This document shows positions 27,673 through 40,933 of a stretch of 64,000 nucleotides of DNA, piece by piece. Position numbers and translations under genes: made by a program. This stretch comes from Psychromonas algarum. Lineage in GTDB: Bacteria; Pseudomonadota; Gammaproteobacteria; Enterobacterales; Psychromonadaceae. The DNA is taken from NCBI RefSeq assembly GCF_004376845.1, contig NZ_SNUW01000007.1, forward strand, positions 1 through 64,000, written 5' to 3'. The stretch's first letter is position 1, and the number at the start of each line of letters is the position of its first letter. The notes below the pieces were generated by a model. That model did not search any database, was not told the DNA's origin, and worked only from the letters and a program-made list of their open reading frames with translations.

Positions 27673-29133
27673 TTGCCAAAGTTCACTCTTAAACAAGAAG
27701 ATAAATTATCAATTAAATTAACTCATCATATGAAAATGAGAGAATTCAGACGGATTGATTTATATTTTTCGTTACCAAAAGAGATGGGAATTAATAAAGA
27801 TACACTATCTGAAGTTGATTATTTTAATGCAGGTATAAAAGGTCGTAGAGCCTATTATACCAAAGGCCTGCATTTACCCTTATTGCATCGTCGTTTTGCA
27901 AGTCGTATGAAACGTTCTCTTGCTGAATATAGAACCAACCTAAATCTTTTTGCTTATCAATATATTACGGCACTAGATACTGATGCGAATGAAGTATTAG
28001 CGATTGATGATAGTGAAGGACTAGGTGATTTCTATCATGCTATGGTTGAATTAACGGAGCACTGTTTAGATATTCTAAAAAAGCACCGTAGCCACCAACC
28101 TACTCGTGCGAAACTAATTCCCATTTATGAAAATGTAGATAATTATCTTTCTTGGTATACCGAGCAAACTATTATGCTCATGTTATCTAAAAAACCCCGT
28201 CATTCTGAATTTTCAGAAACACGTTTAGCTTTACTCACCATCTGTGACGAAGAAAGCCAATACCGTAAAAAAAATGCTTATAACTCGGAAGCAACTTTAA
28301 AAGACGCAAATCGAATAGCTAATAAAATGCGCTTATTACGACGCTTAATTGAATACAGTGTCATTTTCAAAAGCAAAACTGTCGTATTAGGTAATATCAC
28401 ACGTAAATTTGTTACCGGCATTGCAACGGCTTTATTAATGAGTGTTGTGCTAATTCTAATTATTAAAACGCAAGGTGCCTTTAGCCAATTAACAGCTTTG
28501 ATGATTTTCTTATTAGCGATCATTTATGGCGCACGCGAAGTGTTTAAAGATGATTTTAAAAATATCTTATGGCGCTGGATACGAACCGGTAAACCTAAAT
28601 GGTCTCGCACTTTATTAGACTCCACCAATAAACATGAAATAGCAAAGCAAAAAGTTTGGTTAGATTACAGTAAAAGTAAAAAACTACCTCAACAAAGTAA
28701 GGACTTACTCGCAGAGCGCCATACACAGAATAAACAAAGTGCAGAGTTATTACATTTCCGTATTGAAACGAGAGTAAGCAAAAGTGGCTTTCAACCTGGT
28801 TACGACACAATGGAAGAAAATATCGTATTTAATTTACGTCCATTAACTCGTTATGTTGAAGGTGGCACTGGAAAAGTATTTGAACGTTTAGATAGCACCA
28901 CTAACAGGGAAAAAATTCAAAGTACTTCTATTGAACGACGTTATCAAATCAATATTATTGTCGCCCTTGATCAAGGAGAATATCTGGCGCAATTTGAACG
29001 TTATAAAATAACCTTAAATCGTTCCGGTATCATTGATATTGTCAAAGCGGGAGAAGCAAAAATTAAAGATAAAGCAGATCAAAAGTATCAATCTAAACTA
29101 CATGCTCTGCTACATATCAAAAAACGCTTATAA
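27673..29133 (+). CDS. Unrecognised protein with a central pair of membrane helices
   Basis: The 486-residue protein starts with TTG, seven bases after a consensus AAGGAG, and no ATG is better placed. Residues 1-240 are charged and largely helical with no motif I know. Two adjacent hydrophobic helices lie near 248-290 (TGIATALLMSVVLILII and LTALMIFLLAIIYGA). A basic and beta-rich C-terminal part follows (about 300-486). The layout suggests an inner-membrane protein with two cytoplasmic domains. I do not recognise the family and name no function. It converges on the metal-transport genes. Confidence 0.85.
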   Translation: MPKFTLKQEDKLSIKLTHHMKMREFRRIDLYFSLPKEMGINKDTLSEVDYFNAGIKGRRAYYTKGLHLPLLHRRFASRMKRSLAEYRTNLNLFAYQYITALDTDANEVLAIDDSEGLGDFYHAMVELTEHCLDILKKHRSHQPTRAKLIPIYENVDNYLSWYTEQTIMLMLSKKPRHSEFSETRLALLTICDEESQYRKKNAYNSEATLKDANRIANKMRLLRRLIEYSVIFKSKTVVLGNITRKFVTGIATALLMSVVLILIIKTQGAFSQLTALMIFLLAIIYGAREVFKDDFKNILWRWIRTGKPKWSRTLLDSTNKHEIAKQKVWLDYSKSKKLPQQSKDLLAERHTQNKQSAELLHFRIETRVSKSGFQPGYDTMEENIVFNLRPLTRYVEGGTGKVFERLDSTTNREKIQSTSIERRYQINIIVALDQGEYLAQFERYKITLNRSGIIDIVKAGEAKIKDKADQKYQSKLHALLHIKKRL

Positions 29134-29152
29134 GGGCGATAAACTTGCCCTT
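29132..29152. terminator. Short hairpin between convergent stop codons
   Basis: AAGGGC and GCCCTT pair across the 18-bp gap between the two stops. It is followed by TTTAAAA on the plus strand. Confidence 0.5.
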
Positions 29153-30033
29153 TAAAATAACCAACGCTGTAATGGGTGTTGGTTATTAATGCCAATACTT
29201 CCCCAACGATCAATACTATCCACCACTAAAATATTTTTAAAATCAGGTAACAATTCACGTAAATTTTTAGAAACTTTTCTACTCGTTAACAACCACAAAT
29301 GAGGAGACTCTTTTAATAATGTTTTTAATACTAATTTATCTTGTTCAGTCCACTCTAATTCTGCTTTAAATAAACGTTTCACAACAAATAACTGATTAGC
29401 AGAAGAAAAATCTTCTAATTGTTCAGATAAAAGCACAACTGAATCAATCTCTTTATCAAACAAAACTTGCTGTTGCTGATTAATTAACAAGCGAATATCC
29501 ACTAATAATCGCTGCTGATTTTTTTCAATCAAAGTTGCATATTCAGGCCAAATTTTTTGTAAGTCATCACTTACAATACTTAACATTGTTCCTAGATTAT
29601 TAGGATTCAACCAAGCATAAATCGAACTTTTACCATTATTCAACGTCACTGTAGCCACTCCTTTTGCTAAAGGAGCCAGGGATTGTGAAGCATCAATCTC
29701 GATGAGTTTAATATTTCCCTGACGAGCATAAATAAACAGAGGATCTTGTGGCCATAAAGCCTTTAACGTAATAGCAACAGTCGCTTCTTTACCTGCGTGT
29801 AATGCTTTTTCCGTTCCTTTACTCATATACCAATTATTTAAACGCTCAATACCATAACGTTTTGGTGCCAGATAACTTGTTGTTATAGGGGAACCTTTCA
29901 TTAACTGTGTTGCAATCATATAAGTAACAGGGGCTGTGGTTAAAATATCTTTCGCCCATAGCTGAGTAGGCAATAAAGCAACAATACACAAGAGTAATTT
30001 ATAGAGTCTATTTTTTTGTATCAACGTTTTCAT
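29152..30033 (-). CDS. ZnuA/TroA-like protein lacking the metal-binding histidines
   Basis: This 293-residue protein has a signal peptide (cleavage near LWAKD) and the overall pattern of a cluster A-I metal-binding protein: TAPVTYMIATQLMKG, a helix of about 30 residues, YAWLNPNNLGTMLSIV and a C-terminal lobe ending VVDSIDRWG. At the places where ZnuA-type proteins have histidines (GADPH and DPHVWLDP) it has APKRYG and SIYAWLNP. It is the last gene of the ABC operon, 21 bp after the permease. It may be an accessory protein or bind another ligand. A normal binding protein is encoded upstream. Confidence 0.65.
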   Translation of the reverse strand: MKTLIQKNRLYKLLLCIVALLPTQLWAKDILTTAPVTYMIATQLMKGSPITTSYLAPKRYGIERLNNWYMSKGTEKALHAGKEATVAITLKALWPQDPLFIYARQGNIKLIEIDASQSLAPLAKGVATVTLNNGKSSIYAWLNPNNLGTMLSIVSDDLQKIWPEYATLIEKNQQRLLVDIRLLINQQQQVLFDKEIDSVVLLSEQLEDFSSANQLFVVKRLFKAELEWTEQDKLVLKTLLKESPHLWLLTSRKVSKNLRELLPDFKNILVVDSIDRWGSIGINNQHPLQRWLF

Positions 30034-30054
30034 CCATGACCTTAGTTGCGTTAT

Positions 30055-30933
30055 TTATCTACGCTGCAATATGATGCGATACATTGTCGCGATTAAAAAG
30101 AAAGTGGCTGCAACTAATATAATTGAAGCACCCGATGGGATAGGTAACTTCAACTCCATAGGCAATAATGTACCAATCAAACAACTTAAGGTTGCTAATG
30201 CTGAAGATAACAACACAAAACTGCCCATACTTTTAGTCATTAAACGTGCTGTCGCACCTGGAATTAATAACAAGGCTCCAACTAATACCGCACCAACAAT
30301 TTTAACCGCAGCAATAGTGACTAAGGTGATCATCATGACAAATAAGTAATCATAAAAATGGGTATTATGGCCACGCACTTTCGCAATATCAGGACTAATT
30401 GAAGCCAGTAAAATTCGATTAAAAGTAAACATCAATCCAACTACAATCAAAGTACAACTGATGGCTAGCACTAACAAATCAAAATCAGTAATAGTTAAAA
30501 TCGAACCAAATAAAACATTTTCTAACATGTGAATATTTATTTTGCGCGCAACATACATCAATAGGGCTGCACCACCAGCAAGAGCAACAGCAAGGAAAAC
30601 ACCCACTAAAGTATCATAAGGTACTGCGGTACGATTACGCACAAAGTGCAGCAACAAAGCAAACAGCATACAAAAGCAGAATAAACCAATAATAGGATTT
30701 TCAGGTGGTTCGCCCAATAAAACTCCAATCGCAATACCAGTCAAAGCAGCATGACCAACTGCTTCAGAAAAGAAAGCCAAACGTTTGGCGATGACCAAGG
30801 TGCCTAATCCACCTAATAACGGCCCTACTAATAAAGCAGCAACTAACGCATTAACCATAAAAGCATAAGAAAAACTTTCACTTAACCAACCCGCTTCAGC
30901 ACCTTGACTAGCGACTAAACGTAACCAATCCAT
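30055..30933 (-). CDS. Metal ABC transporter permease (ZnuB/ABC-3 family)
   Basis: The 292 residues have eight or nine hydrophobic helices and ABC-3 signatures: GPLLGGLGTLVIAKRLAFFSEA, GHAALTGIAIGVLLG and KIVGAVLVGALLLIPGATARL. This family forms the inner-membrane channel for zinc, manganese or iron. It overlaps the ATPase gene by one base, so translation is probably coupled. Confidence 0.93.
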   Translation of the reverse strand: MDWLRLVASQGAEAGWLSESFSYAFMVNALVAALLVGPLLGGLGTLVIAKRLAFFSEAVGHAALTGIAIGVLLGEPPENPIIGLFCFCMLFALLLHFVRNRTAVPYDTLVGVFLAVALAGGAALLMYVARKINIHMLENVLFGSILTITDFDLLVLAISCTLIVVGLMFTFNRILLASISPDIAKVRGHNTHFYDYLFVMMITLVTIAAVKIVGAVLVGALLLIPGATARLMTKSMGSFVLLSSALATLSCLIGTLLPMELKLPIPSGASIILVAATFFLIATMYRIILQRR

Positions 30934-31685
30934 TATGCGACCTCATTATTATGTGGGTGAATTTGAGTAGAGTTAAGACAAGACGTCGCTCGGTAATGAT
31001 TAAAAAGTTGTTCTATTTTATGTGCTTTCAATACTTCACTCGCATCGCCACTTTCTAATAATTCACCATTCACTACATGCACAGTGGCTTCTAAACGGCG
31101 TACTGCGCTGATGTCATGATGCACAATAATAATTGTTTTATTTTCTTTCACTAACTCAACAATCAGCGATTCAAAATAACGCACACCTTGATCGTCCATA
31201 CCATTAGTTGGCTCATCTAAAATTAATAGATCAGGGGTATCTAATAAAGCTTGTGCAAACAGAACACGCTGTTGCTCACCTCCTGAAAGTTGCCCCATTC
31301 TTAACATAGCCCGATCAGCCATGCCAACTCTTGCTAACTGCAGTAATGCTTTTGTTTTATGCTTTTTATTAAAGTTAAAAAATAACGGAGAACGGCTTTG
31401 ATTAAGCAAAATAAAATCTAATACGGTTAAAGGTAAACTAGGTTCAAAGGTTGCCTTTTGAGGAACATACCCCACCTTTCCAGGATTTTCTGACCAATGA
31501 ATATTGATACCTCCTTTAAAAGGAGTCAGACCTAACATAGAACGTAAAAGTGAAGTTTTACCACCTCCATTTGGTCCCATGATCACATGGCACTTTCCTG
31601 CATCAAGCGTTAATGAAATATTTTCTAATATACAGTTATTTTCATAACGTAAACTCACACTTTGCAGTGAAATTGAAGGCCCCAT
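30933..31685 (-). CDS. Metal ABC transporter ATPase (ZnuC type)
   Basis: The 250-residue ATPase shows Walker A GPNGGGKTS, the Q-loop VPQK, the signature LSGGEQQRV, Walker B LLILDEPTNGMD and the switch histidine in IIIVHHD. The family energises uptake of zinc, manganese or iron. The start and stop overlap its neighbours by a single base each. Confidence 0.94.
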   Translation of the reverse strand: MGPSISLQSVSLRYENNCILENISLTLDAGKCHVIMGPNGGGKTSLLRSMLGLTPFKGGINIHWSENPGKVGYVPQKATFEPSLPLTVLDFILLNQSRSPLFFNFNKKHKTKALLQLARVGMADRAMLRMGQLSGGEQQRVLFAQALLDTPDLLILDEPTNGMDDQGVRYFESLIVELVKENKTIIIVHHDISAVRRLEATVHVVNGELLESGDASEVLKAHKIEQLFNHYRATSCLNSTQIHPHNNEVA

Positions 31686-32587
31686 TAAACACCTCCTTTT
31701 TGCTGAGCAGTAAATTTCATTGCTTCAACCAAAGTTTGTATATTGTCATGCATTTCTATCTCTACTTTATTGGCTTTGTAGGCTCCATGTGTCATGTGTG
31801 AAAAGCGGTATAATTTAATGCCCGTTTCTTTTTCAATAGTATCAACATAACGATTAGGCATATTTAACTCATAAAATAAGACATCGATATTTGAGTCTCT
31901 AATTTTTTCTATGGTTTCTTGTAATTGACTCGCACTTGGCTCAACACCGTGCGCAGGCTCAATAACAGCTGAAACTTCAACACCAAACTCCTGCAGAATG
32001 TAACCATAAGCATTATGTGTTGTTGCCACTTTCATACCTACTGTATTGATATCACTTAATTCTTGCATTGCTTGATGCTTCATTTTTCTAAATTTCATTG
32101 CATAAGCTCGTGCATTTGCACGATAAAAAGCAGCATTAGGAGGGTCGATTTTCGCCATTTCATTAGCAATGGTATAAACCTTTTGAATAGTAGTAGAGAT
32201 GCCAACAAACGTATGTGGATTAACTACACCATTACCCACTGATTGCCCCATTGCAGGCAATAAAGGAACATCTTTATTCGCTTGAATAACAATCAAATCA
32301 CTACGGTTAGCTGCATCAATTACTTTCAAAGCAAAATCATCATGACCAATACCATTGACCACAATGATATCCATTTTGTTTAAACGACGTAAATCATTCG
32401 CTTGTGGCTGATAGTTATGTGGATTAAACCCCTCATCAACTAAAGGCAATATTTCAACACGATCACCAACAACCGCTTTTACATAACTATAATAAGGTTG
32501 CAAGGTGATCCCAACAATCAACTTATCCGCCAAGCTTGCTGTACTATAAAGTACTAATAACAAACTTAAAAATAGCTTTTTAAACAT
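31685..32587 (-). CDS. Metal ABC transporter substrate-binding protein (ZnuA/TroA family)
   Basis: The 300-residue protein has a signal peptide (cleavage near SLADK) and the cluster A-I fold with three metal-ligand histidines: H57 in GFNPHNYQP, H125 in VNPHTF and H191 in ATTHNAYGY. It lacks the His-rich loop of typical ZnuA. The C-terminal region normally holding a fourth Asp ligand reads instead FSHMTHGAYK, so metal preference (zinc, manganese or iron) cannot be assigned. It delivers metal to the permease encoded downstream. Confidence 0.88.
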   Translation of the reverse strand: MFKKLFLSLLLVLYSTASLADKLIVGITLQPYYSYVKAVVGDRVEILPLVDEGFNPHNYQPQANDLRRLNKMDIIVVNGIGHDDFALKVIDAANRSDLIVIQANKDVPLLPAMGQSVGNGVVNPHTFVGISTTIQKVYTIANEMAKIDPPNAAFYRANARAYAMKFRKMKHQAMQELSDINTVGMKVATTHNAYGYILQEFGVEVSAVIEPAHGVEPSASQLQETIEKIRDSNIDVLFYELNMPNRYVDTIEKETGIKLYRFSHMTHGAYKANKVEIEMHDNIQTLVEAMKFTAQQKGGV

Positions 32588-32623
32588 GGAAAATAATCTC
32601 GTTAGTTAATTGATATATATTTA

Positions 32624-33184
32624 TCAATGTTGATGGTTTGCATGATGATTATCTGACTCAAAAACCACTTGAGTCCAACCAGCTTTAATAAGAAAAGCAG
32701 TATTGAAAGCAAAGCCATCTTCAAGGTTAATAGGTTGCGCTTGCTGCTTAAGGTCAATCCAAATATCAAGTTGCTCATGTTGACTAATTAAAATATAACG
32801 CGCGCTATCATTAGTCGGTTCACTTTGATAAACACCATCGGCCACTTGTACCCAAATATGCTTACCTTGATGCTCCCAGCTTTTGTCTTTGACAAAAGGA
32901 GCAATCCAATCTTGCTCCAATTGATTAACCGATAACCAGGTTTGATTAGCTTGATAAAAATAACGGATCTCTTCATGAGCAAGACGCAATTCTGAGATCA
33001 TAGATAATGGCGGAGGCGTTAAAGAAGTAATTAGAACTTGATGCGGTTCGATAGTTTGATGCTGATGGCCAGTACTATTATAAGGTAATAATATTGCCCC
33101 TAATAAAAGAATAAGGACGCATAAGGCGCTGATCCAAGCACCTTCTTGTCCTTTATTTTCACTCACTACAGCTTGAATTATCAT
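32624..33184 (-). CDS. DUF6162-like membrane-anchored protein with His-rich tail
   Basis: The 186 residues have one N-terminal membrane helix (about 17-35) and a periplasmic domain. Histidines cluster just after the helix (GHQHQTIEPH) and at the very C terminus (NHHANHQH), as expected for a metal-binding accessory protein. I recall this type as DUF6162 next to metal ABC transporters, from memory only. It overlaps the upstream small gene by four bases and precedes the binding-protein gene by 36 bp. Confidence 0.7.
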   Translation of the reverse strand: MIIQAVVSENKGQEGAWISALCVLILLLGAILLPYNSTGHQHQTIEPHQVLITSLTPPPLSMISELRLAHEEIRYFYQANQTWLSVNQLEQDWIAPFVKDKSWEHQGKHIWVQVADGVYQSEPTNDSARYILISQHEQLDIWIDLKQQAQPINLEDGFAFNTAFLIKAGWTQVVFESDNHHANHQH

Positions 33185-33504
33185 TTTTCTGAAATCTCAA
33201 CACTATCAACTTCAACAGGGCTTTCATGACCAGAATCGAAGACAATATAAAACTCATCCGTTGTTTTAGTAAAAGTAGCAATAGAACGATTATCTGTTTG
33301 CACTTTAGCAATTAAATTATCATCGTAATCAAACATATTGATTTGATAATCAACGGCAGTGCTACCATCACTATAACCCGCTTCACATTCGATCATTTCG
33401 CCTTGATACCAACATTGCATCAAAGGAAAATGTGCAAAAGCAAACTGACTAAAAAATAATAGAGGAACGCCACAGGCATTCCTTAATAAGTTAAAATTGC
33501 TCAC
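33181..33504 (-). CDS. Small secreted protein of unknown function in the metal locus
   Basis: This 107-residue protein has a signal peptide ending near FAFAHF. The mature part keeps one pair of cysteines (MQCWYQGEMIECEAGY), probably a disulfide, and is acidic and beta-rich. I do not recognise the family. It overlaps DUF4198 by one base and the DUF6162-like gene by four, so it is translated as part of the operon. A periplasmic accessory role is inferred from context only. Confidence 0.75.
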   Translation of the reverse strand: MSNFNLLRNACGVPLLFFSQFAFAHFPLMQCWYQGEMIECEAGYSDGSTAVDYQINMFDYDDNLIAKVQTDNRSIATFTKTTDEFYIVFDSGHESPVEVDSVEISEK

Positions 33505-34337
33505 TATGGTAATACCGCTTCAAAAGTTAGGTTTACGCTCGCCATCATTTTGTCTGCAAATTGATTATCAACTAATACATCCTGATGTTTTGCAACTAAC
33601 AGGTATCGCCCTGCAATTTCAGGTGTAAAAGTAACAAATCCTTTTTCATCACTAACGACCTTTACTTCTTCTTGTTGATTACGATAAATCATACCTTCAC
33701 GAACGACTTCAACTTCAACACCCGCTTGAGCTTTACCGTTAAAGAAAAGCTGCAAACGAACAGGCTCTTCAGCCACGATATCTGATGGGTGAGTAATTGG
33801 CATTAACTCTAAATACTTACCTTCTAACTCAAATGCCTTGGTATTGGGTTTTCCCACAGTGATATAGCTTTCTACGCGAGTAAACATCACCGCTGTTTCT
33901 ACATCTCTAGACTCTTTTGGTAAAAGGGCAACACGGTCAATTTTATTGGCACGCATTCTCTTAGGAGTATCACGACGCCCTGCTTTAAATCGAGTGAAGT
34001 AACTTGGCTCATTATTGATGGTTACTTTATGTGTGCCTGCTTCAATAAATTCAAAATCGAATACAGATCGGCGTTTACCACGTAATACAAAATTTGGTCG
34101 CTCTTTACGGCCATCAGGCATAATGATTCGCGCATTTTCACTGCCGGCAGGTTTATCAAATACAAAAGTTGCATTAGCAGCCGTCACATCAAAAGTTAAC
34201 CATTCACCTCCTTCTGTTGAAACGGTAAAGTTTGACGGTAATACCCAACGAGTATGTGCGCTTGCAGCACTAGAAAAAGCAGCGCCAGCTAACATAGTGC
34301 AAGCAACGGCTAATACATTGATTTTTTTATTTAACAT
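33504..34337 (-). CDS. DUF4198 periplasmic protein
   Basis: From ATG 34337 (GAGAG upstream) the protein is 277 residues with a signal peptide cleaved near ASAHTRW. The mature part begins AHTRWVLPSNF and has beta-sandwich domains, the last with GKAQAGVEVEVVREG...GFVTFTPEIAGRYLL. This is the DUF4198 family, often coded beside nickel, cobalt or other metal uptake systems. The mature N-terminal histidine is reminiscent of metal sites in such proteins. The ATG further upstream would add four residues. Confidence 0.82.
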   Translation of the reverse strand: MLNKKINVLAVACTMLAGAAFSSAASAHTRWVLPSNFTVSTEGGEWLTFDVTAANATFVFDKPAGSENARIIMPDGRKERPNFVLRGKRRSVFDFEFIEAGTHKVTINNEPSYFTRFKAGRRDTPKRMRANKIDRVALLPKESRDVETAVMFTRVESYITVGKPNTKAFELEGKYLELMPITHPSDIVAEEPVRLQLFFNGKAQAGVEVEVVREGMIYRNQQEEVKVVSDEKGFVTFTPEIAGRYLLVAKHQDVLVDNQFADKMMASVNLTFEAVLP

Positions 34338-34374
34338 TTTGACTCTCAATTAATAATTTTAAACGGACATTATT

Positions 34375-34890
34375 CTATTTAGTTCGATACTTAAGGGTTA
34401 TCAGCCCAGTTTCTTGTGTCGGTTTTAGCTGTTTACTAAAACCATTTTCAAATAGTTGTAGTTTTTGACGTAAAATATTTCGCCCTCCATGCTCACGAAC
34501 AACTTCAATATAAAGCGTGTATTCACCTTGCTCTATACGTTCACCTTGGTCATTCAAACCATCCCAAGTAAAACGGTATTTCCCTGCAGGTCGAGAAGCA
34601 GAAGTCACGGCATCGACTAATTGACGATCATTTCGTCCAACTTTTCTCCACCAGCTGCGTAGATCTTTTAGCCAATCATCCTTACCCACCCAAAGTTGCA
34701 AAGTACGAACTGATTTTTTTTGTTCATTCTCAAGCCAGACCGCAACATAAGGTCTCGCATAACTAGTAGTTTCAATAACCGGCAACTCAAGATGTACATC
34801 CAAAGTGGCATTATCAGGAATTGTTTTAGCCCAGCTTGGTAAAGCAATACAAAGAGCAAACAACAAGTAACTTATATTTTTAATTTTCAT
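34375..34890 (-). CDS. DUF2271 periplasmic protein
   Basis: The 171 residues start with a signal peptide (cleavage near SWAKT), then a single beta-sandwich domain with the DUF2271 patterns YVAVWLENEQ, TLQLWVG, WLKDLRSWW and YRFTWDGLNDQG. The family is typically found with PepSY membrane proteins and TonB-dependent receptors, as here. Its function is unknown. Confidence 0.85.
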   Translation of the reverse strand: MKIKNISYLLFALCIALPSWAKTIPDNATLDVHLELPVIETTSYARPYVAVWLENEQKKSVRTLQLWVGKDDWLKDLRSWWRKVGRNDRQLVDAVTSASRPAGKYRFTWDGLNDQGERIEQGEYTLYIEVVREHGGRNILRQKLQLFENGFSKQLKPTQETGLITLKYRTK

Positions 34891-34955
34891 TTTTTACATT
34901 CTCAATCAGATATCAATGCGATCATTTTCGATGCTGCACTCAACAACAAATAACA

Positions 34956-35609
34956 CTAAGGTACTGCCAAGAAAAAGATCAACAGACTGGCAATAGAACC
35001 CAATGCAGTCCATTTCAGTCCAAGACGAAAACTCTTTTTCTTAGGCACTAACAAACACACTCCAGTTACAACAAAAAACACCATTAACAACGCACTAATA
35101 TCAATAAACCAAGCCCATACCTGACCACTATTTCGCCCTTTATGTAGATCATTTAATACTGCAATAAGCCCATAGTGACTTGTTTCAATTTCAACTTGTC
35201 GACTCACTAAATCGATAAAGACAGTACTGTTATAACCAGGACCTTTGTAATCGAGAGAGATTTCTCCTTCAAGTAACTCTCCATTTTGCACATCACTAAA
35301 CAATTGCAGTTCAGAAGGTTTGCCAGATAAATTTCCTTGAGTAGCTAAGAAGTCCAACAATAATGGTTTCTCTATATTTAGGCGTCCTTCCTCAATATTA
35401 AAAAAGTGAGCAGGCATGATCAGTTCACTGTTTTCAATTTGAGGTTTTTCACTTACAAAGAGTTGAGGACGATTTAAGGTGATCCCTGTTAACGAAAAAA
35501 ACAGTACAACCAACAATAATGACATCGAAACATAGACATGTAAGCGACGAGCCCAAAGCTGTACTTTTTTATTTTTAAGCGAAGTTGTGATGGTATTAGA
35601 CATATTCAT
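34956..35609 (-). CDS. PepSY-associated transmembrane protein
   Basis: The family pattern is an N-terminal WARRLHVYVSM helix followed by a hydrophobic segment, a periplasmic domain of about 120 residues with LLDFLATQG and FIDLVSRQVEIETSHYGLIAVLNDLHKGR, and C-terminal helices (about 165-215). The HxxxxxS and DLHKGR histidines resemble heme-ligand or metal-ligand positions of PepSY-type siderophore reductases. ATG 35609 is the first ATG; TTG 35633 would add eight residues, and ATG 35603 is also possible. A weak Fur-like site lies just upstream. It may reduce or process the imported metal complex; that is inference. Confidence 0.8.
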   Translation of the reverse strand: MNMSNTITTSLKNKKVQLWARRLHVYVSMSLLLVVLFFSLTGITLNRPQLFVSEKPQIENSELIMPAHFFNIEEGRLNIEKPLLLDFLATQGNLSGKPSELQLFSDVQNGELLEGEISLDYKGPGYNSTVFIDLVSRQVEIETSHYGLIAVLNDLHKGRNSGQVWAWFIDISALLMVFFVVTGVCLLVPKKKSFRLGLKWTALGSIASLLIFFLAVP

Positions 35610-35634
35610 TGTGTGGTTAATTTTAAAATGCAAA

Positions 35635-35649
35635 TGTAACTCATTATCA
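35635..35649 (-). promoter_or_regulatory. Weak Fur-like box before the PepSY gene
   Basis: Read on the minus strand, TGATAATGAGTTACA has one perfect half-site of the 7-1-7 Fur motif and three mismatches in the other half. It lies 26 bp upstream of the chosen start. Confidence 0.45.
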
Positions 35650-35699
35650 TTTAAGTTCTAATTAAACTTACATTCTTTACATTTATATCAGGGGTTATA

Positions 35700-35723
35700 A
35701 AACGACTAGTGACCTAGTCGTTT
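35700..35723 (-). terminator. Terminator after the TonB-dependent receptor gene
   Basis: AAACGACTAG and CTAGTCGTTT form a perfect 10-bp stem with a TGAC loop. On the minus strand it is followed by TTTTATAA, so the receptor gene can end here and the downstream genes form a second unit. Confidence 0.8.
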
Positions 35724-35749
35724 CTATTCGTAGTAGTAACTAAAGGTAA

Positions 35750-37879
35750 TTAGTAACGAACTTGTACTGAAGCCATAAAGTTGCGACCTTCACCCAGTAC
35801 AACATTTTGGGCACCATTATTTGTATAGTCATCACTGGTAGAACCACCGCCACCGTAATAACTAGTATCAAAGACATTTTCTACGTTAAAACGAAATACC
35901 ATTTCTAAATTTTGGTCATATTGTAAATGATGAGCAACACCTAGATCGAAACGGGTATAAGCATCTTTTTTGAAGGTATTTGCAGCATCACCAAATCGCT
36001 CACCAACATAAATAGCACCAACATTAAGATCGGTATTATGAGTTACTTGATAACGAGACCAAAGGCTAGCAGATAATTCAGGCACGTCTGCAGGACGATT
36101 ACCTTGGTAGTTTGCATCCTTAGTATATTCAGCATTCAAGTAAGTACCTGTTCCACTTAATGATAAATCAGTAGTTAAATTACCTTGTAATGTTAATTCA
36201 GCACCACGGTGAATACGCTCACCCGCTTGAGTAACTTCGTAGTTACCATTACCTTTATCAACATTGATTGTTGAATTTTCTTCACTAATTTGGAAAATAG
36301 CAGCAGAAGTATATAGACGGTTATCAAACAGTTCCCATTTACTACCTAACTCATAAAGTTTACCGGTAACTGGATCTAATTTAGCCCCATCATTAGTTGC
36401 ATTAGTATCTGAAACATCAGATAAAGGTTCAAAACTTTCAGAGTAAGTTAGATAGATAGAACCATTACTTGCAGGATGATAAATTAGGGCTAATTTAGGT
36501 ACAACCGCATCTAATTTTTCATCTGATTCGCCATTACTTCCTGGTGTCACTTTAAGATCATAACGAAGGCCACCTAAGACTTGCCATTGATCATTAAGTG
36601 TTACCATGTCTTGGATATAGACACCAACTTGTTCATACTCAGTATTAGAGGTTCTAACACTAGCAGTTGTATCAATTTCAGGTGATGCCGTTGGTTGGCC
36701 TGGCGTTGTTGTCGATCCTACTAATGAATACTGAACACGATCATAGCTCTGACCTAACCAGTTACTACCGATTAATAATTGGTGTCCAATACCACCTGTT
36801 TGAAACTCACCAACTAAATCAATATTTGCTGTTCTATAAATCCAGTTGTCACTTCGATCATTACCACCTTGGGTATAAGTGTTAGTTGTTGGGTCATAGG
36901 TTTCTTCTCGCGGATAACTTTCTACATCATGACGCTTAAAGTCTTGGTAATTAAAACCAACATTAAGTGACCAGTTATCACTTAATTGTGCAGCCACATC
37001 AACTCCAATATTCTCAACTTCATTTTCTATATTTGACCACTGAGCATCCCAAATATATTTATCACCAAGTACTGTTTTATCATCTTTAATGTAAGCACCA
37101 GAATCAACGCCGCCATTATCATCTGTACGGTCATAATGAAAAGAAACAGTAATTGCATCATTCAAATCATAATCAACAAATAATCCACCAACAAAACGAT
37201 CCGTAGTAGGAGTAGAACCATCACTATAACTGCGCCATGATTCCATATTTTGTTGTGATAAAACTAAACGACTACGTAATGTTTTAGCTTCATTTAATGA
37301 ACCGCTGATATCAATTGTGCTACGCGTATCATTATTTGAACCAATATCCTGACTGAATACAACGTGAGTTTCTGCAGTTGGTTTTTTAGAAACCATATTG
37401 ATTAAACCACCCGGCGCAGATTGTCCATATAATAAACTTGCTGGCCCTTTTAAAACTTCAACAGATTCTAACAACTCAACAGGCAGACGGTAATGAGCCC
37501 ATTGTTGCTTACCGTCACGTAAAAAACCACTACTGCTCTCTAATTCAAAACCACGTAAAGAAAAACGTTCACGATTACGACTATTACCTCCTGCCGATAC
37601 ACTTGAGTCATTCTTTAAAACTTGGCTTAATGATGTCGCTCGTTGCTCTTCAATTAATTGTTCATCAATGACGGTTACTTGTCCTGGAGTTTCAAGCTGA
37701 GTCATCTCCATACGCATCGAACCAGTATTGGTATCATCTTTATAATTAGCTCGCTCTCCTGTTACAACCATTGTTTGCTCAGGATCCACATCAATACTTG
37801 TTTCTGCAGCATTAACATAAAACATTGATGAAGTTAGTGCTGTCCCTACAAACATTGCCAACTGACTTTTATTAAACAT
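35750..37879 (-). CDS. TonB-dependent siderophore/metallophore receptor
   Basis: The 709-residue outer-membrane receptor has a signal peptide, a TonB-box-like EQTMVVTG near residue 35, a plug domain (about 50-160, with VLKGPASLLYGQSAPGGLINMVSKKP) and a 22-strand barrel ending in the aromatic-terminated VQVRY. The plug and barrel style is that of the siderophore receptor family. It should import an iron- or other metal-chelate complex using TonB energy. A perfect Fur motif lies about 100 bp upstream. No siderophore synthesis genes are in the window, so the ligand may be foreign. Confidence 0.92.
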   Translation of the reverse strand: MFNKSQLAMFVGTALTSSMFYVNAAETSIDVDPEQTMVVTGERANYKDDTNTGSMRMEMTQLETPGQVTVIDEQLIEEQRATSLSQVLKNDSSVSAGGNSRNRERFSLRGFELESSSGFLRDGKQQWAHYRLPVELLESVEVLKGPASLLYGQSAPGGLINMVSKKPTAETHVVFSQDIGSNNDTRSTIDISGSLNEAKTLRSRLVLSQQNMESWRSYSDGSTPTTDRFVGGLFVDYDLNDAITVSFHYDRTDDNGGVDSGAYIKDDKTVLGDKYIWDAQWSNIENEVENIGVDVAAQLSDNWSLNVGFNYQDFKRHDVESYPREETYDPTTNTYTQGGNDRSDNWIYRTANIDLVGEFQTGGIGHQLLIGSNWLGQSYDRVQYSLVGSTTTPGQPTASPEIDTTASVRTSNTEYEQVGVYIQDMVTLNDQWQVLGGLRYDLKVTPGSNGESDEKLDAVVPKLALIYHPASNGSIYLTYSESFEPLSDVSDTNATNDGAKLDPVTGKLYELGSKWELFDNRLYTSAAIFQISEENSTINVDKGNGNYEVTQAGERIHRGAELTLQGNLTTDLSLSGTGTYLNAEYTKDANYQGNRPADVPELSASLWSRYQVTHNTDLNVGAIYVGERFGDAANTFKKDAYTRFDLGVAHHLQYDQNLEMVFRFNVENVFDTSYYGGGGSTSDDYTNNGAQNVVLGEGRNFMASVQVRY

Positions 37880-37975
37880 ATTCCCTTACTCCAAAGCGCT
37901 AATTAATTTTGTATTTTTCTCAATTCCATTTGAGTGATAAATCACATGTATGAATGGAAGAAACAGGAATCTATA

Positions 37976-37990
37976 TGATAATAATTATCA
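37976..37990 (-). promoter_or_regulatory. Fur box upstream of the TonB-dependent receptor
   Basis: TGATAATAATTATCA is a perfect 7-1-7 Fur motif, TGATAAT-N-ATTATCA. It lies 97 bp before the receptor start, in the position of its promoter. Confidence 0.85.
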
Positions 37991-38200
37991 ATAACAACAA
38001 ACTTACATTCTTTACATATAAATATTTATTGTAAAAACTAATTTCAGGAAAAATTTCAATCGTTAAATTTAAGGTAAGCAATTGTTTTAATTTACAAAAT
38101 AAAGTAGTTAAGCAAGTAGTGGGATAAGTGAGTGCAGTCTCATGGAGAGTAATGGGTGTTAACTAAAATTAATTTTAATCGTCATTTTATGAACGATATG

Positions 38201-38269
38201 ATCTAAATTTCACGCAGAAAATATTTAATAGGAGGTGTAAACAGTTGTTCCATTTACGAAATTCATAAG
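38201..38269 (+). repeat. Intergenic repeat, copy A
   Basis: This stretch shares ATCTAA-TTT-ACGC-GAAAA, AGGTGTAAA and ATTTACGAAATT in the same order and similar spacing with 50409-50489. It lacks about 10 bp present in the other copy. It is non-coding and lies between the orphan regulator and the receptor gene. Confidence 0.55.
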
Positions 38270-38301
38270 TAAAAAATGAGTTATTTTGAGCAAGAAATTA
38301 T

Positions 38302-38994
38302 TTACAAAAAAGAAAGAAAAGCAAAAGAAAACTGAGCAACTTTTTCACAAAAGCTATAACCCTTTCCATGCACTGTTTGAATATGTAATTTAGAAAGTCC
38401 CGCATTCAGCATTTTGCGGCGAATATTACTAATATGAACATCTAAATTTCGATCAAAGGTGGAAAGTTCTTTTTTAAGCACCTTTTTTTGTAGTGTTGCT
38501 TTAGAAACAATATCACCATTATTTTTACTCAAATATTGCACTAATAATTGTTCCGTTTCCGTGAGTGGCAAACGAGATATTTTAAAAGAAAATTGCTGGC
38601 TGCAATGTTGGAAAGCTAAACGTTTTTTTTCTAAAGTTATACGTCGCAATAAAGCATCAATATGTACGAGTAGAGACTTATTAGAATAAGGCTTGATCAT
38701 GTATTGATCTGCCCCAGCTTGTAATCCATCAATAGCATTTATTTCATCTTTTTCTGAGGTTAAAAATAAAATAGGAATAGCAAAACGTTGGCTGATTGAT
38801 TCTATTAATTGCAGCATTACTTGAGGTGTAGAACAATGATCTAATAGGATCAAGTCAGCATCACATTGTTGAAGATAATTTAATACTTTCTCATGCTCAT
38901 TAACATAAGTAACTTGATGTGAAGTTTTATTAAAAGCTTGGATTAATAATTGTTTATTTTGTACATCATTATTAACCACGACAATATGTGACAT
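38302..38994 (-). CDS. Orphan OmpR-type response regulator with an atypical receiver
   Basis: From ATG 38994 the protein is 230 residues. The receiver keeps the phospho-acceptor position D52 (LILLDHC), T79 and K101 (YMIKPY), but the usual acidic pair near residue 8 reads NN (VVVNNDVQ). A winged-helix domain follows (about 130-220: LSKNNGDIVSK...LDVHISNIRRKM...VHGKGYSF). No histidine kinase is adjacent. A good Fur box lies 20 bp upstream, and the next genes on the same strand are the metal-uptake locus. It may regulate that locus. The longer frame from 39012 adds six residues. Confidence 0.85.
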   Translation of the reverse strand: MSHIVVVNNDVQNKQLLIQAFNKTSHQVTYVNEHEKVLNYLQQCDADLILLDHCSTPQVMLQLIESISQRFAIPILFLTSEKDEINAIDGLQAGADQYMIKPYSNKSLLVHIDALLRRITLEKKRLAFQHCSQQFSFKISRLPLTETEQLLVQYLSKNNGDIVSKATLQKKVLKKELSTFDRNLDVHISNIRRKMLNAGLSKLHIQTVHGKGYSFCEKVAQFSFAFLSFL

Positions 38995-39013
38995 AACTAC
39001 TCTAAAAAACAAA

Positions 39014-39028
39014 TGATAATGATTCTCA
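39014..39028 (-). promoter_or_regulatory. Fur box upstream of the orphan regulator
   Basis: TGATAATGATTCTCA matches the 7-1-7 Fur motif except for one base in the right half (plus-strand reading). It sits 20 bp upstream of the regulator start codon. Confidence 0.75.
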
Positions 39029-39071
39029 TTGTACTTTAAAGCATTAATAATTCAAACAAATAAATGAAAGA

Positions 39072-39121: not shown

Positions 39122-40861
39122 TTAAGCAATAAGCGCAGTAGGTGCCACCTCTTTTATATCAATATCACTACGTCCTAATGCATTTAATACTGCTTGCATT
39201 GATGCGGTAACAATATCAACACAATGAGCGGCGGCACAATAACGACTGCCTTTAATACTGATTTGTACATACGCCATAGCTTCGGCCTGTTCATTTTCAG
39301 CACCCGCTATACTCGGCAATGCATGCTCATTGTAATCAAGTAACACAATATCGTGGCCAATTGTTTCACTTAATCCTTTTACAAATGCATCTAACACCCC
39401 TTTGCCTTGGCCAGTTAATTCAACAATAGAGGTATCGAATTGTAATTCGGCAGATAAAGTATCTACGCTACCTTCACGGCTAAGTTGGTAATTACTAATA
39501 TTAGGCGCATGTTTAGGGTTTAAGTAAGTTGTTGAAAAAATATGATGAATAGCTTCTGAACCTACTTCAGATTCACTTTGCTCAGCATGTGTTTGAATAT
39601 GAGGACTAAAATCAACTTGCATCCAGCGAGGCATTTGAATGCCATAATCTTGCTCAAGTACGTAAGCTACCCCGCCTTTACCAGATTGACTATTAATACG
39701 GATCACTTGTTGATAAGTTCGTCCTAAATCGCGTGGATCAATTGGTAAATAAGCCACTTGCCAATGTGCATCAGGATCAACTTTACGTTGTTCTGCATCG
39801 ATGCTCATACATTTATTAATCGCATCTTGATGACTACCAGAAAAAGCAGCAAAAACTAACTCTCCTGCATAAGCATGACGAGGGTGAACAGCTAATTGAG
39901 TACAACGTTCAACGGTGGCAATAATTCTATCCATATCTGAAAAATTTAATTCAGGATCAATACCTTGGCTATAGATATTCATGGCCATAGTCACGATATC
40001 CATATTACCAGTACGCTCACCATTACCTAATAATGTACCTTCGATCCTATCAGCTCCAGCTAATACGCCTAGCTCCGCAGCAGCAACACCACAACCTCGG
40101 TCATTATGAGTATGTAAGCTAATTTTCACTGAATCTCGATGACTAATATTGTCATTAATCCATTCAATTTGGTCTGCATAAACATTAGGTGTCGACACTT
40201 CGACAGTGGCAGGTAAATTTATAATAACTTTATTTTCTGGCGTTGGTTGCCAAACAGCAATCACTGCATCACATACTTCAAGCGCATAATCCATTTCCGT
40301 ACCGGTAAAACTTTCTGGTGAATATTGGAAAGACCAACGTGTTTCAGGTTGTGCTGCAGCCATCTCTTTTACCCACAGTGCACCTTGAGTTGCAATGCTT
40401 TTAATTTCTTCTGTAGATTTTTTAAAAACTTGTTCACGTTGTACTGTAGAAGTTGAATTATATAAGTGAACAATCGCTTTTTTAGCGCCTTTTAATGCTT
40501 CAAAGCTACGTGCAATTAATGGCTCTCTTGCCTGAGTTAACACTTGAATAGTGACATCATCAGGAATTAAATCTTGCTCGATCAATTGACGTACAAAATC
40601 AAAGTCTGGTGCTGAGGCAGCTGGGAATCCAACTTCAATTTCTTTAAAGCCGACATCAACTAATAGCTTAAACATTTCTAGTTTTTGGCTAGGACTCATC
40701 GGTTCAATAAGAGCTTGATTGCCATCTCTTAAATCAACACTACACCAGTCCGGAGCAGTACTGATAATTTGATTAGGCCAACGTCTATCCGTTTTTTGAA
40801 TAGGTGTAAAAGCACGGTATTTTTTGTGATTAAACTGAGATGTTTGAGTATTAACTGACAT
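39122..40861 (-). CDS. leuA: 2-isopropylmalate synthase, long (LeuA2) type
   Basis: LeuA condenses acetyl-CoA with 2-ketoisovalerate, the first step of leucine synthesis. The 579 residues are the longer LeuA2 form: catalytic DLRDGNQALIEPMS, SLHTHNDRGCGVAAAELGVLAGADRIEGTLLGNGERTGN (read as separate motifs), a linker, and the C-terminal regulatory domain that binds leucine. ATG 40861 has GGGA seven bases upstream; ATG 40867 would leave only two bases. No leuBCD follows, so the other leucine genes must be elsewhere. A leucine-rich leader peptide and three hairpins lie upstream. Confidence 0.94.
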   Translation of the reverse strand: MSVNTQTSQFNHKKYRAFTPIQKTDRRWPNQIISTAPDWCSVDLRDGNQALIEPMSPSQKLEMFKLLVDVGFKEIEVGFPAASAPDFDFVRQLIEQDLIPDDVTIQVLTQAREPLIARSFEALKGAKKAIVHLYNSTSTVQREQVFKKSTEEIKSIATQGALWVKEMAAAQPETRWSFQYSPESFTGTEMDYALEVCDAVIAVWQPTPENKVIINLPATVEVSTPNVYADQIEWINDNISHRDSVKISLHTHNDRGCGVAAAELGVLAGADRIEGTLLGNGERTGNMDIVTMAMNIYSQGIDPELNFSDMDRIIATVERCTQLAVHPRHAYAGELVFAAFSGSHQDAINKCMSIDAEQRKVDPDAHWQVAYLPIDPRDLGRTYQQVIRINSQSGKGGVAYVLEQDYGIQMPRWMQVDFSPHIQTHAEQSESEVGSEAIHHIFSTTYLNPKHAPNISNYQLSREGSVDTLSAELQFDTSIVELTGQGKGVLDAFVKGLSETIGHDIVLLDYNEHALPSIAGAENEQAEAMAYVQISIKGSRYCAAAHCVDIVTASMQAVLNALGRSDIDIKEVAPTALIA

Positions 40862-40933
40862 AAGCATTTCCCTAAAACTATTTCTGATTTGCCATGCAGT
40901 GGCTTTCAGGTGTTTGTCATACGATAAAGTAAT

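Follow-up and report, generated by a model that had tools for sequence, protein, structure and literature searches.

The question raised by this locus is which metal it takes up and by which route. It lies in a stretch of 64,000 nucleotides of Psychromonas algarum (contig NZ_SNUW01000007.1, positions 1 to 64,000), the whole of which is called the window here, and comprises eleven leftward genes running from about position 39000 to 29152, as delineated from open reading frame (ORF) coordinates and family profile searches; all gene coordinates given below are on the reverse strand. The initial annotation had counted ten consecutive leftward genes, of which the positions and named families were retained while the count was raised to eleven. 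It had also proposed a complete route for a metal-chelate, from receptor through periplasmic processing to import by an ATP-binding cassette (ABC) transporter, and had left the metal open. In our study, the route is well supported and the metal is most likely iron, because of the orthology to the Fpv proteins of Pseudomonas, the six histidines of FpvC, the Fur boxes and the siderophore receptor of TIGR01783. We assign a probability of roughly 0.8 to the reading that the locus is an Fpv-type system which takes iron from a ferric siderophore by the route set out below.

As judged by homology and gene order, the last six genes of the window's locus make up an Fpv core as in the pyoverdine system of Pseudomonas, fpvJ-K-C-D-E-F in the same order, since homologues stand in this order in locus L154 and the published order is fpvGHJKCDEF. 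The closest solved structures to the metal-binding protein of FpvC type (31685..32587) are 6r3z (best match, E 3e-90), 6r44, 6r5s, 6ru4 and 6r6k. By their PDB titles, 6r3z, 6r44, 6ru4 and 6r6k represent P. aeruginosa FpvC with Ni or Mn and, in case of 6r6k, an FpvC mutant, in which the six histidines of FpvC are replaced by glycine as read from the alignments. The FpvC of L154 (genome G906) is 100% identical to 6r3z over 272 residues and this locus was taken as P. aeruginosa on that ground; L146-L151 and L155-L157 belong to the same genome family. In L154 a 403-residue PepSY_TM protein (FpvG), a 179-residue protein (FpvH), a 109-residue protein (FpvJ), a DUF6162 protein (FpvK), FpvC, FpvD, FpvE and FpvF follow one another, the Fpv names being assigned by gene order. 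The profile of the family of the window's 107-residue protein (33181..33504) matched the 109-residue FpvJ with E 9e-21. FpvK of L154 belongs to DUF6162 (Pfam E 8e-45), as does the window's FpvK-type protein (32624..33184; PF19659, E 4e-13), which has one N-terminal membrane helix by eye and a His-rich tail. Moreover, the ATPase (30933..31685; PF00005, E 3e-26), the permease (30055..30933) and the second binding protein (29152..30033) matched FpvD, FpvE and FpvF of L154 by profile with E 3e-64, 3e-104 and 3e-46, respectively. In P. aeruginosa, FpvGHJKCDEF has been reported to free the iron of pyoverdine by reducing it, with FpvC and FpvDE taken as its carriers onward; FpvJ is described as periplasmic, FpvK as a predicted membrane protein, and FpvH, FpvJ and FpvK as proteins of unknown function (PMC6954188). 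Most of the periplasmic proteins of the locus that had been called uncharacterised correspond to Fpv or flavinylation-cluster proteins.

The conservation of the locus was followed in two samples. The first consisted of 15 relatives, taken as the genomes of the order with a DUF6162 match together with 20 kb around the match; DUF6162 was present in 16 of 60 relatives, the window's genome included, and in 11 of 24 within the genus. The second consisted of 80 named loci, which were the best of 139 relatives of the binding protein with the 59 weaker ones left out, so that this sample leans to close kin; its genera are Psychromonas, Photobacterium, Vibrio, Aliivibrio, Moritella, Ferrimonas and Motilimonas. 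A unit of nine genes, from the PepSY_TM_like_2 gene through the second binding protein of FpvF type, kept its order in 15/15 relatives and in 79/80 named loci, the remaining one (L070) being cut by a contig end. Seven of the 80 named loci repeat relatives already taken, which leaves 89 distinct loci when the window is counted; one of these is incomplete, and the order is intact in all 88 distinct loci uncut by a contig end. Counts given below out of 94, 95 or 96 include the seven repeats, and the DUF2271 motif count refers to the 88 distinct loci. The set of accessory proteins, earlier called unusual, is thus the regular set of these loci. A receptor-family match above 500 bits was found somewhere within 20 kb in 11/15 relatives, and a receptor homologue lay within 1.5 kb upstream in 7/79 named loci (three on the opposite strand) and within 6 kb in 35/79, as counted by homology to the window's receptor, so that receptors of other families would escape. 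A regulator homologue stood upstream on the same strand in 8/15 relatives and 6/79 named loci. Because receptor and regulator vary among the loci, the conserved unit is the nine genes; the proposed survey for a ten-gene order found these nine linked in all uncut relatives but receptor and regulator linked only in part.

All six FpvC histidines (H57, H82, H125, H191, H213 and H264) are present in the window protein, and they are kept in 96/96 cassette loci and in 15/15 other Fpv loci. This site bears on the possibility that the locus is a zinc or manganese importer, made of a ZnuABC-like transporter, a metallophore receptor and periplasmic metal chaperones. The ABC transporter and binding protein do belong to the ZnuA/ABC-3 class, binding proteins of this kind are automatically named zinc transporter in plasmid records, and FpvC has been crystallized with Ni or Mn. 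Further, a ZnuA-family search of the genome at E 0.1 returned the FpvC-type protein of the locus and its degenerate partner and no others, though another contig encodes a Zur-like regulator (154 bits, cut-off 167). Five matches of 16/23 to a Zur consensus, a raw count, lie in the window, among them one near the locus at 28995 and one inside it at 38574. On the other hand, the six-His site occurs in every locus counted and departs from the ligands typical of Zn or Mn sites; two strong Fur boxes and a siderophore-type receptor accompany it, and a reductase module would be useless for Zn. The equivalog scores for ZnuA, ZnuB and ZnuC (47.9, 100.2 and 129.8 bits) are below all cut-offs (268, 284 and 306). 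Zinc or manganese was ruled out as the leading explanation on the Fur boxes, the reductase and the six-His site, and we regard it as unlikely.

The second binding protein had been described as being without metal ligands, which is confirmed: it is of FpvF type by profile, scores 17 bits against ZnuA, and has the ZnuA fold in a predicted model (predicted local distance difference test score, pLDDT, 92; 1pq4, E 5e-12). FpvC and FpvF gave no notable alignment by sequence profiles; the fold search shows a common fold. FpvF of P. aeruginosa is a siderophore binder. It is conceivable that an FpvF-like protein transports the entire siderophore, which would suit a metal-siderophore or haem passing intact through the ABC transporter and being reduced in the cytoplasm; the PepSY and DUF2271 proteins would then serve otherwise, e.g. 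in envelope protection. PepSY proteins have also been read as siderophore permeases (PMC7190382). However, the permease is of ABC-3 type by its Pfam scores (E 2e-52 for PF00950 and 2e-8 for FecCD), and the Fpv studies put iron release in the periplasm (PMC6954188), which makes intact import quite unlikely.

In the place of FpvG, the window encodes a PepSY_TM_like_2 membrane protein (34956..35603; PF16357, E 1e-52), a candidate haem electron carrier whose His21 and His153 are kept in 95/95 loci. Its match to PF03929 is weak (E 6e-13) and that of FpvG of L154 strong (E 5e-66); from this shared family the two may be distant kin, which profile comparison could not align. It is followed by a DUF2271 periplasmic protein (34375..34890; PF10029, E 3e-45), a candidate covalent flavoprotein with the near-consensus ApbE-type flavinylation motif DAVTSAS (34594..34614), and by a DUF4198 secreted protein (33504..34337; PF10670, E 6e-46). 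The published motif consensus is D-x-x-[S/T]-G-A-[S/T] (PMC12052999). The pattern D..[ST][SG]A[ST] is present in DUF2271 of 88/88 distinct loci, with Ser at the Gly position in 86 and Gly in 2, and gave no match in 42,079 residues of the ten remaining families, taken from the window and the 15 relatives. ApbE is encoded once in the genome, adjacent to nqrF, and carries a lipobox as judged by eye. Clusters of PepSY-like, DUF2271 and DUF4198 proteins have been proposed to have iron-reducing roles, and one DUF2271 protein was shown to be flavinylated (Meheust et al. 2021, PMC8238504). In Alteromonas, DUF4198 and DUF2271 were reported only beside iron-responsive receptors (PMC7190382), and the Caulobacter DUF2271/DUF4198 cluster is reported as a Fur target (PMC3751524, PMC12004947). 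As a separate observation, the DUF2271 and DUF4198 genes CC3060 and CC3061 are reported to go down in a Caulobacter zur mutant (PMC4176598).

Other Fpv loci carry other reductase genes. DUF2271 and DUF4198 profile matches were found neither in ten loci of the G684 family (L146-L151, L154-L157) nor in L121-L124 and L126. A PiuB-type PepSY_TM protein is present in L121, L122, L124, L126 (there downstream on the opposite strand) and L154, and a search of 11 loci gave FpvG and FpvH homologues in 10, namely L122, L123 and eight loci of the G684 family, and none in L156. In an unrooted FastTree tree of FpvC, FpvD and FpvE (61 loci, with 28 drawn from the 80 named loci; 828 columns), the 46 flavin-type loci are split from the 15 others by a branch with support 1.000, and a single reductase swap is the simplest reading of this topology. 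That FpvH might be a distant DUF4198 or DUF2271 protein was also considered; profile comparison gave it no support. In L151, the second Fpv-like cluster of G684, the DUF6162 gene is preceded by genes for two DUF6644/CopD-like membrane proteins and fpvJ comes last; none of the three upstream proteins tested matched PepSY. This cluster possibly represents a third kind of reductase module. L124 lies on plasmid pORIO2 of Cereibacter azotoformans, typed as conjugative, and holds the Fpv core with a sigma factor, FecR, a TonB receptor and DUF3325/DUF3649.

Upstream of this unit, the TonB-dependent siderophore receptor (35750..37879) scores 318.1 bits against TIGR01783 (cut-off 223.5), and among the other named models FhuA, Fiu and FoxA come next, each far short of its cut-off. 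The gene farthest upstream (38302..38997), outside the conserved unit, encodes an OmpR/PhoB-type response regulator with receiver (PF00072, E 1e-12) and Trans_reg_C (PF00486, E 1e-16) domains. No kinase was found among the cassette genes tested.

Fur motifs had been noted at three points of the locus. They were scored as matches to a 19-bp consensus, the chance level being taken from 20 first-order Markov windows. Two are strong: box 1 (39015..39033), ahead of the response-regulator gene, and box 2 (37977..37995), ahead of the receptor gene, both match at 16/19 and are the two top matches in the window, and no 16/19 site arose in the 20 simulated windows. By a related pattern, box 1 is one of three sites with one mismatch genome-wide. 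The third (35630..35648), ahead of the PepSY gene, is weak (14/19), about four such scores per window being expected by chance, yet a near-identical 14/19 site recurs at the same position before the PepSY gene in 5/15 relatives. The genome-wide pattern was set aside as uninformative, with 190 matches at up to three mismatches against 228 for the reversed control. From these sites we infer that the locus is probably under Fur control.

The 107-residue protein, initially listed as unknown, is an FpvJ-type periplasmic protein that resembles the ectodomain of NikL. The NCBIfam model of NikL matched it significantly over positions 4-98 of 180 (E 1e-10; 41.6 bits against a cut-off of 100). The same model matched 7/7 FpvJ-type proteins tested, including FpvJ of L154 (E 3e-7), in its first half only and always below the cut-off. 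By this partial match FpvJ is related to the NikL ectodomain and is not itself NikL. Two cysteines and the Ala-His at which the mature protein likely begins are invariant in 44 cassette sequences, and this histidine and both cysteines are kept in 15/15 other Fpv loci. The predicted structure (pLDDT 89) shows a small beta sandwich, for which the fold search listed macroglobulin and Ig-like sandwiches, with 0 of 1296 matches at E 0.001 or below. DUF4198, which had no NCBIfam match, likewise has a histidine right after its likely signal cleavage site, placed by eye, with AxA|H within the first 70 residues in 88/95 loci. The tail of the DUF6162 protein contains at least three histidines in 30/95 cassette loci.

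The NikL matches raise the possibility of a nickel or cobalt route. DUF4198 has been reported among the components of nickel and cobalt energy-coupling factor (ECF) systems (PMC7190382), and Ni-bound FpvC crystals exist. All the NikL matches, however, end at or before position 98 of 180, and no NikMQO family occurs in the cassette. The Fur boxes also argue against this route, as does the place of P. aeruginosa FpvJ in an iron pathway (PMC6954188), and we regard it as very unlikely.

For the iron reading, the following mechanism is proposed. The TonB-dependent receptor would bring the ferric siderophore into the periplasm, where the FpvF-like protein would hold it. Electrons would cross the inner membrane through PepSY_TM_like_2, whose two conserved histidines probably bind one haem, and would pass to a flavin that the single ApbE of the cell has linked covalently to DUF2271. 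The flavin would reduce Fe(III) to Fe(II), at which the siderophore would let go, and the six-His site of FpvC would take up Fe(II) and deliver it to the FpvDE transporter. FpvJ, DUF4198 and FpvK may assist release or hand-off, and the likely mature N-terminal histidines of FpvJ and DUF4198 could bind the metal. Fur would shut the locus off when iron is plentiful. The sequences show the gene content and order, the orthology of six proteins to FpvJKCDEF, the conserved ligands, the near-consensus flavin motif and the Fur-box matches, whereas the substrate, the electron path, the flavin attachment, control by Fur and the roles of FpvJ, DUF4198 and FpvK are inferred.

Several results weigh against this reading. 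The FpvC crystals found hold Ni or Mn rather than Fe. FpvG and FpvH orthologues gave no profile match in the window, and the profile-profile probability was at most 1.1% on shallow alignments; the reductase role therefore rests on the PepSY, DUF2271 and DUF4198 families instead. The locus contains no apbE. The motif of the window's DUF2271 is one residue off the consensus, with Ser for Gly, and the window alone among the 88 loci has Ser instead of Thr as the acceptor; in one model protein, replacing Gly by Ala was reported to leave about 50% of the flavinylation (PMC12052999). Because of the Ser for Gly in 86 of the 88 loci and the Ser acceptor of the window, flavinylation of DUF2271 is graded no higher than likely. 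With regard to regulation, the best Fur match upstream of the PepSY gene was at least 13/19 in 87/94 loci and in 157/564 control pieces, a modest excess, and at least 15/19 in 8/94 and 14/564, in a comparison of related loci, 7/94 of them repeats, with controls drawn mostly from coding DNA. Zur-like scores upstream were also slightly raised (mean 13.8 against 13.1 in controls, of 23), so that base composition contributes to the upstream scores. The Fur excess across the 94 loci is support and not proof. Finally, the siderophore synthetase IucA/IucC was not found in the genome, where non-ribosomal peptide synthetase (NRPS) genes were not sought. Because of this result and because the receptor comes next best to the FhuA, Fiu and FoxA models, the substrate is probably a ferric hydroxamate made by other organisms.

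Both halves of the locus, the Fpv core and the PepSY/DUF2271/DUF4198 reductase, are already in print. No publication joining them was found in the literature searched, which excluded most subscription papers. The main text of PMC8238504 does not mention an ABC transporter, FpvG, ZnuA or pyoverdine, and the two flavinylation papers closest to the topic contain neither FpvG nor FpvC, their main texts giving no mention of pyoverdine or an ABC transporter either. No publication was found for DUF6162 and, as judged by title, no relevant one for the PDB code 6r3z. In FeGenie, FpvGHJKCDEF is classed as a set for siderophore transport (PMC7005843), and a review of Shewanella siderophores describes FpvG and FpvC, in the part concerned, for P. 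aeruginosa only (PMC8891985).

A wider reading that joins the two halves is put forward tentatively and is judged less likely than not. It holds that the Fpv machine is modular. One ancient swap would have replaced FpvG-FpvH by a flavinylated PepSY_TM_like_2/DUF2271/DUF4198 module, served by the ApbE adjacent to Na+-NQR, and this arrangement would be standard in Vibrionaceae, Psychromonas and Moritella. FpvJ and DUF4198, with their exposed N-terminal histidines, would be a metal hand-off pair common to nickel ECF and iron ABC importers. If it is true, the hand-off pair would explain the orphan NikK/NikL proteins of a 2009 survey, for which the neighbouring genes offered no clue (PMC2667541). 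The PepSY/DUF2271/DUF4198 clusters, linked to iron by neighbourhood so far, would also gain a definite iron-import partner. Further, Fpv proteins of unknown function would gain comparison families, the NikL ectodomain for FpvJ and DUF6162 for FpvK, and module swapping makes the question of flavin or haem as the final electron donor testable. Periplasmic iron release with import of bare iron has been described as peculiar to the pyoverdine pathway; our results suggest that it is also common among marine Vibrionaceae, which are not known to produce pyoverdine.

In wider surveys, an FpvC-type protein was found in 2/369 class genomes at E 1e-50, one of the two being the window's genome, in 10/398 genomes of the phylum (E 1e-60) and in 76/298 genomes of the family of G684 (E 1e-80 to 6r3z). 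In the genus and order of G295 it was found in G295 alone (1/4 genomes), and none was found in viral contigs. DUF6162 occurred in 2/369 class genomes of an even draw, again including the window's own; the other locus, L035, is without any cassette gene, so that DUF6162 alone is no marker for the cassette. In the control genome of Caulobacter vibrioides DUF6162 is present and the ZnuA family was not found, and DUF6162 thus occurs without FpvC. Far outside the Proteobacteria, Fusobacterium vincentii (NZ_CP084075.1, 2081875-2082774) encodes an FpvC-like protein with 44% identity to the window's and 49% to 6r3z. In L096 (Photobacterium), the ATPase profile matches two consecutive ORFs, perhaps by a frameshift or sequencing error.

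With respect to the layout of the locus, overlaps of one to four bases had been said to tie the genes together. They occur at four junctions, with 1 bp between the DUF4198 and 107-residue genes, FpvC and the ATPase, and the ATPase and the permease, and 4 bp between the 107-residue and DUF6162 genes; elsewhere there are gaps, of 21-65 bp at the remaining junctions, 149 bp from receptor to PepSY gene (start as used in the computation) and 422 bp from regulator to receptor. Promoter-like sites (33 against 40.9 expected) and terminator-like sites (8 against 6.5 expected) in the locus are at chance level. The locus is flanked by ORF 39122-40867, which by eye we take to be 2-isopropylmalate synthase, and by a 486-residue protein on the forward strand (27673-29133), convergent with the cassette, without Pfam match at E 0.001.

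In comparison to known systems, the locus shares with the NikKMLQO nickel ECF importers the first half of the NikL model, matched by FpvJ, and DUF4198, as reported in Ni/Co ECF systems (PMC7190382), whereas the second half of NikL and NikMQO are lacking and FpvJ stays below the NikL cut-off. With the PepSY-like flavinylation clusters (PMC8238504) it has in common the three families, a near-consensus flavinylation-type motif and the iron context; it differs in having no apbE in the cluster, Ser for Gly in the motif and an Fpv-type ABC importer joined to it. The J-K-C-D-E-F core is shared with Fpv loci of Azospirillum, Shinella, Cereibacter and a Vibrio plasmid, which have no DUF2271 or DUF4198 profile match. 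Of these, the PiuB-type loci have PepSY_TM proteins of 382, 551 and 585 residues in Azospirillum, Cereibacter and the Vibrio plasmid, Azospirillum and Shinella have FpvG and FpvH homologues, and Cereibacter has DUF3325/DUF3649. One FpvC of a flavin-type Vibrio locus is 51% identical to 6r3z. In case of P. aeruginosa FpvGHJKCDEF, the homologues of J-K-C-D-E-F in order, the six-His FpvC and the ligand-less second binding protein are the same, whereas FpvG (403 residues in L154) and FpvH (179 residues) give way in the window to PepSY_TM_like_2, DUF2271 and DUF4198, and the window's receptor fits the general TonB-siderophore model. On these sequence comparisons, the locus of the window is a variant of the Fpv system and not FpvGHJKCDEF itself.

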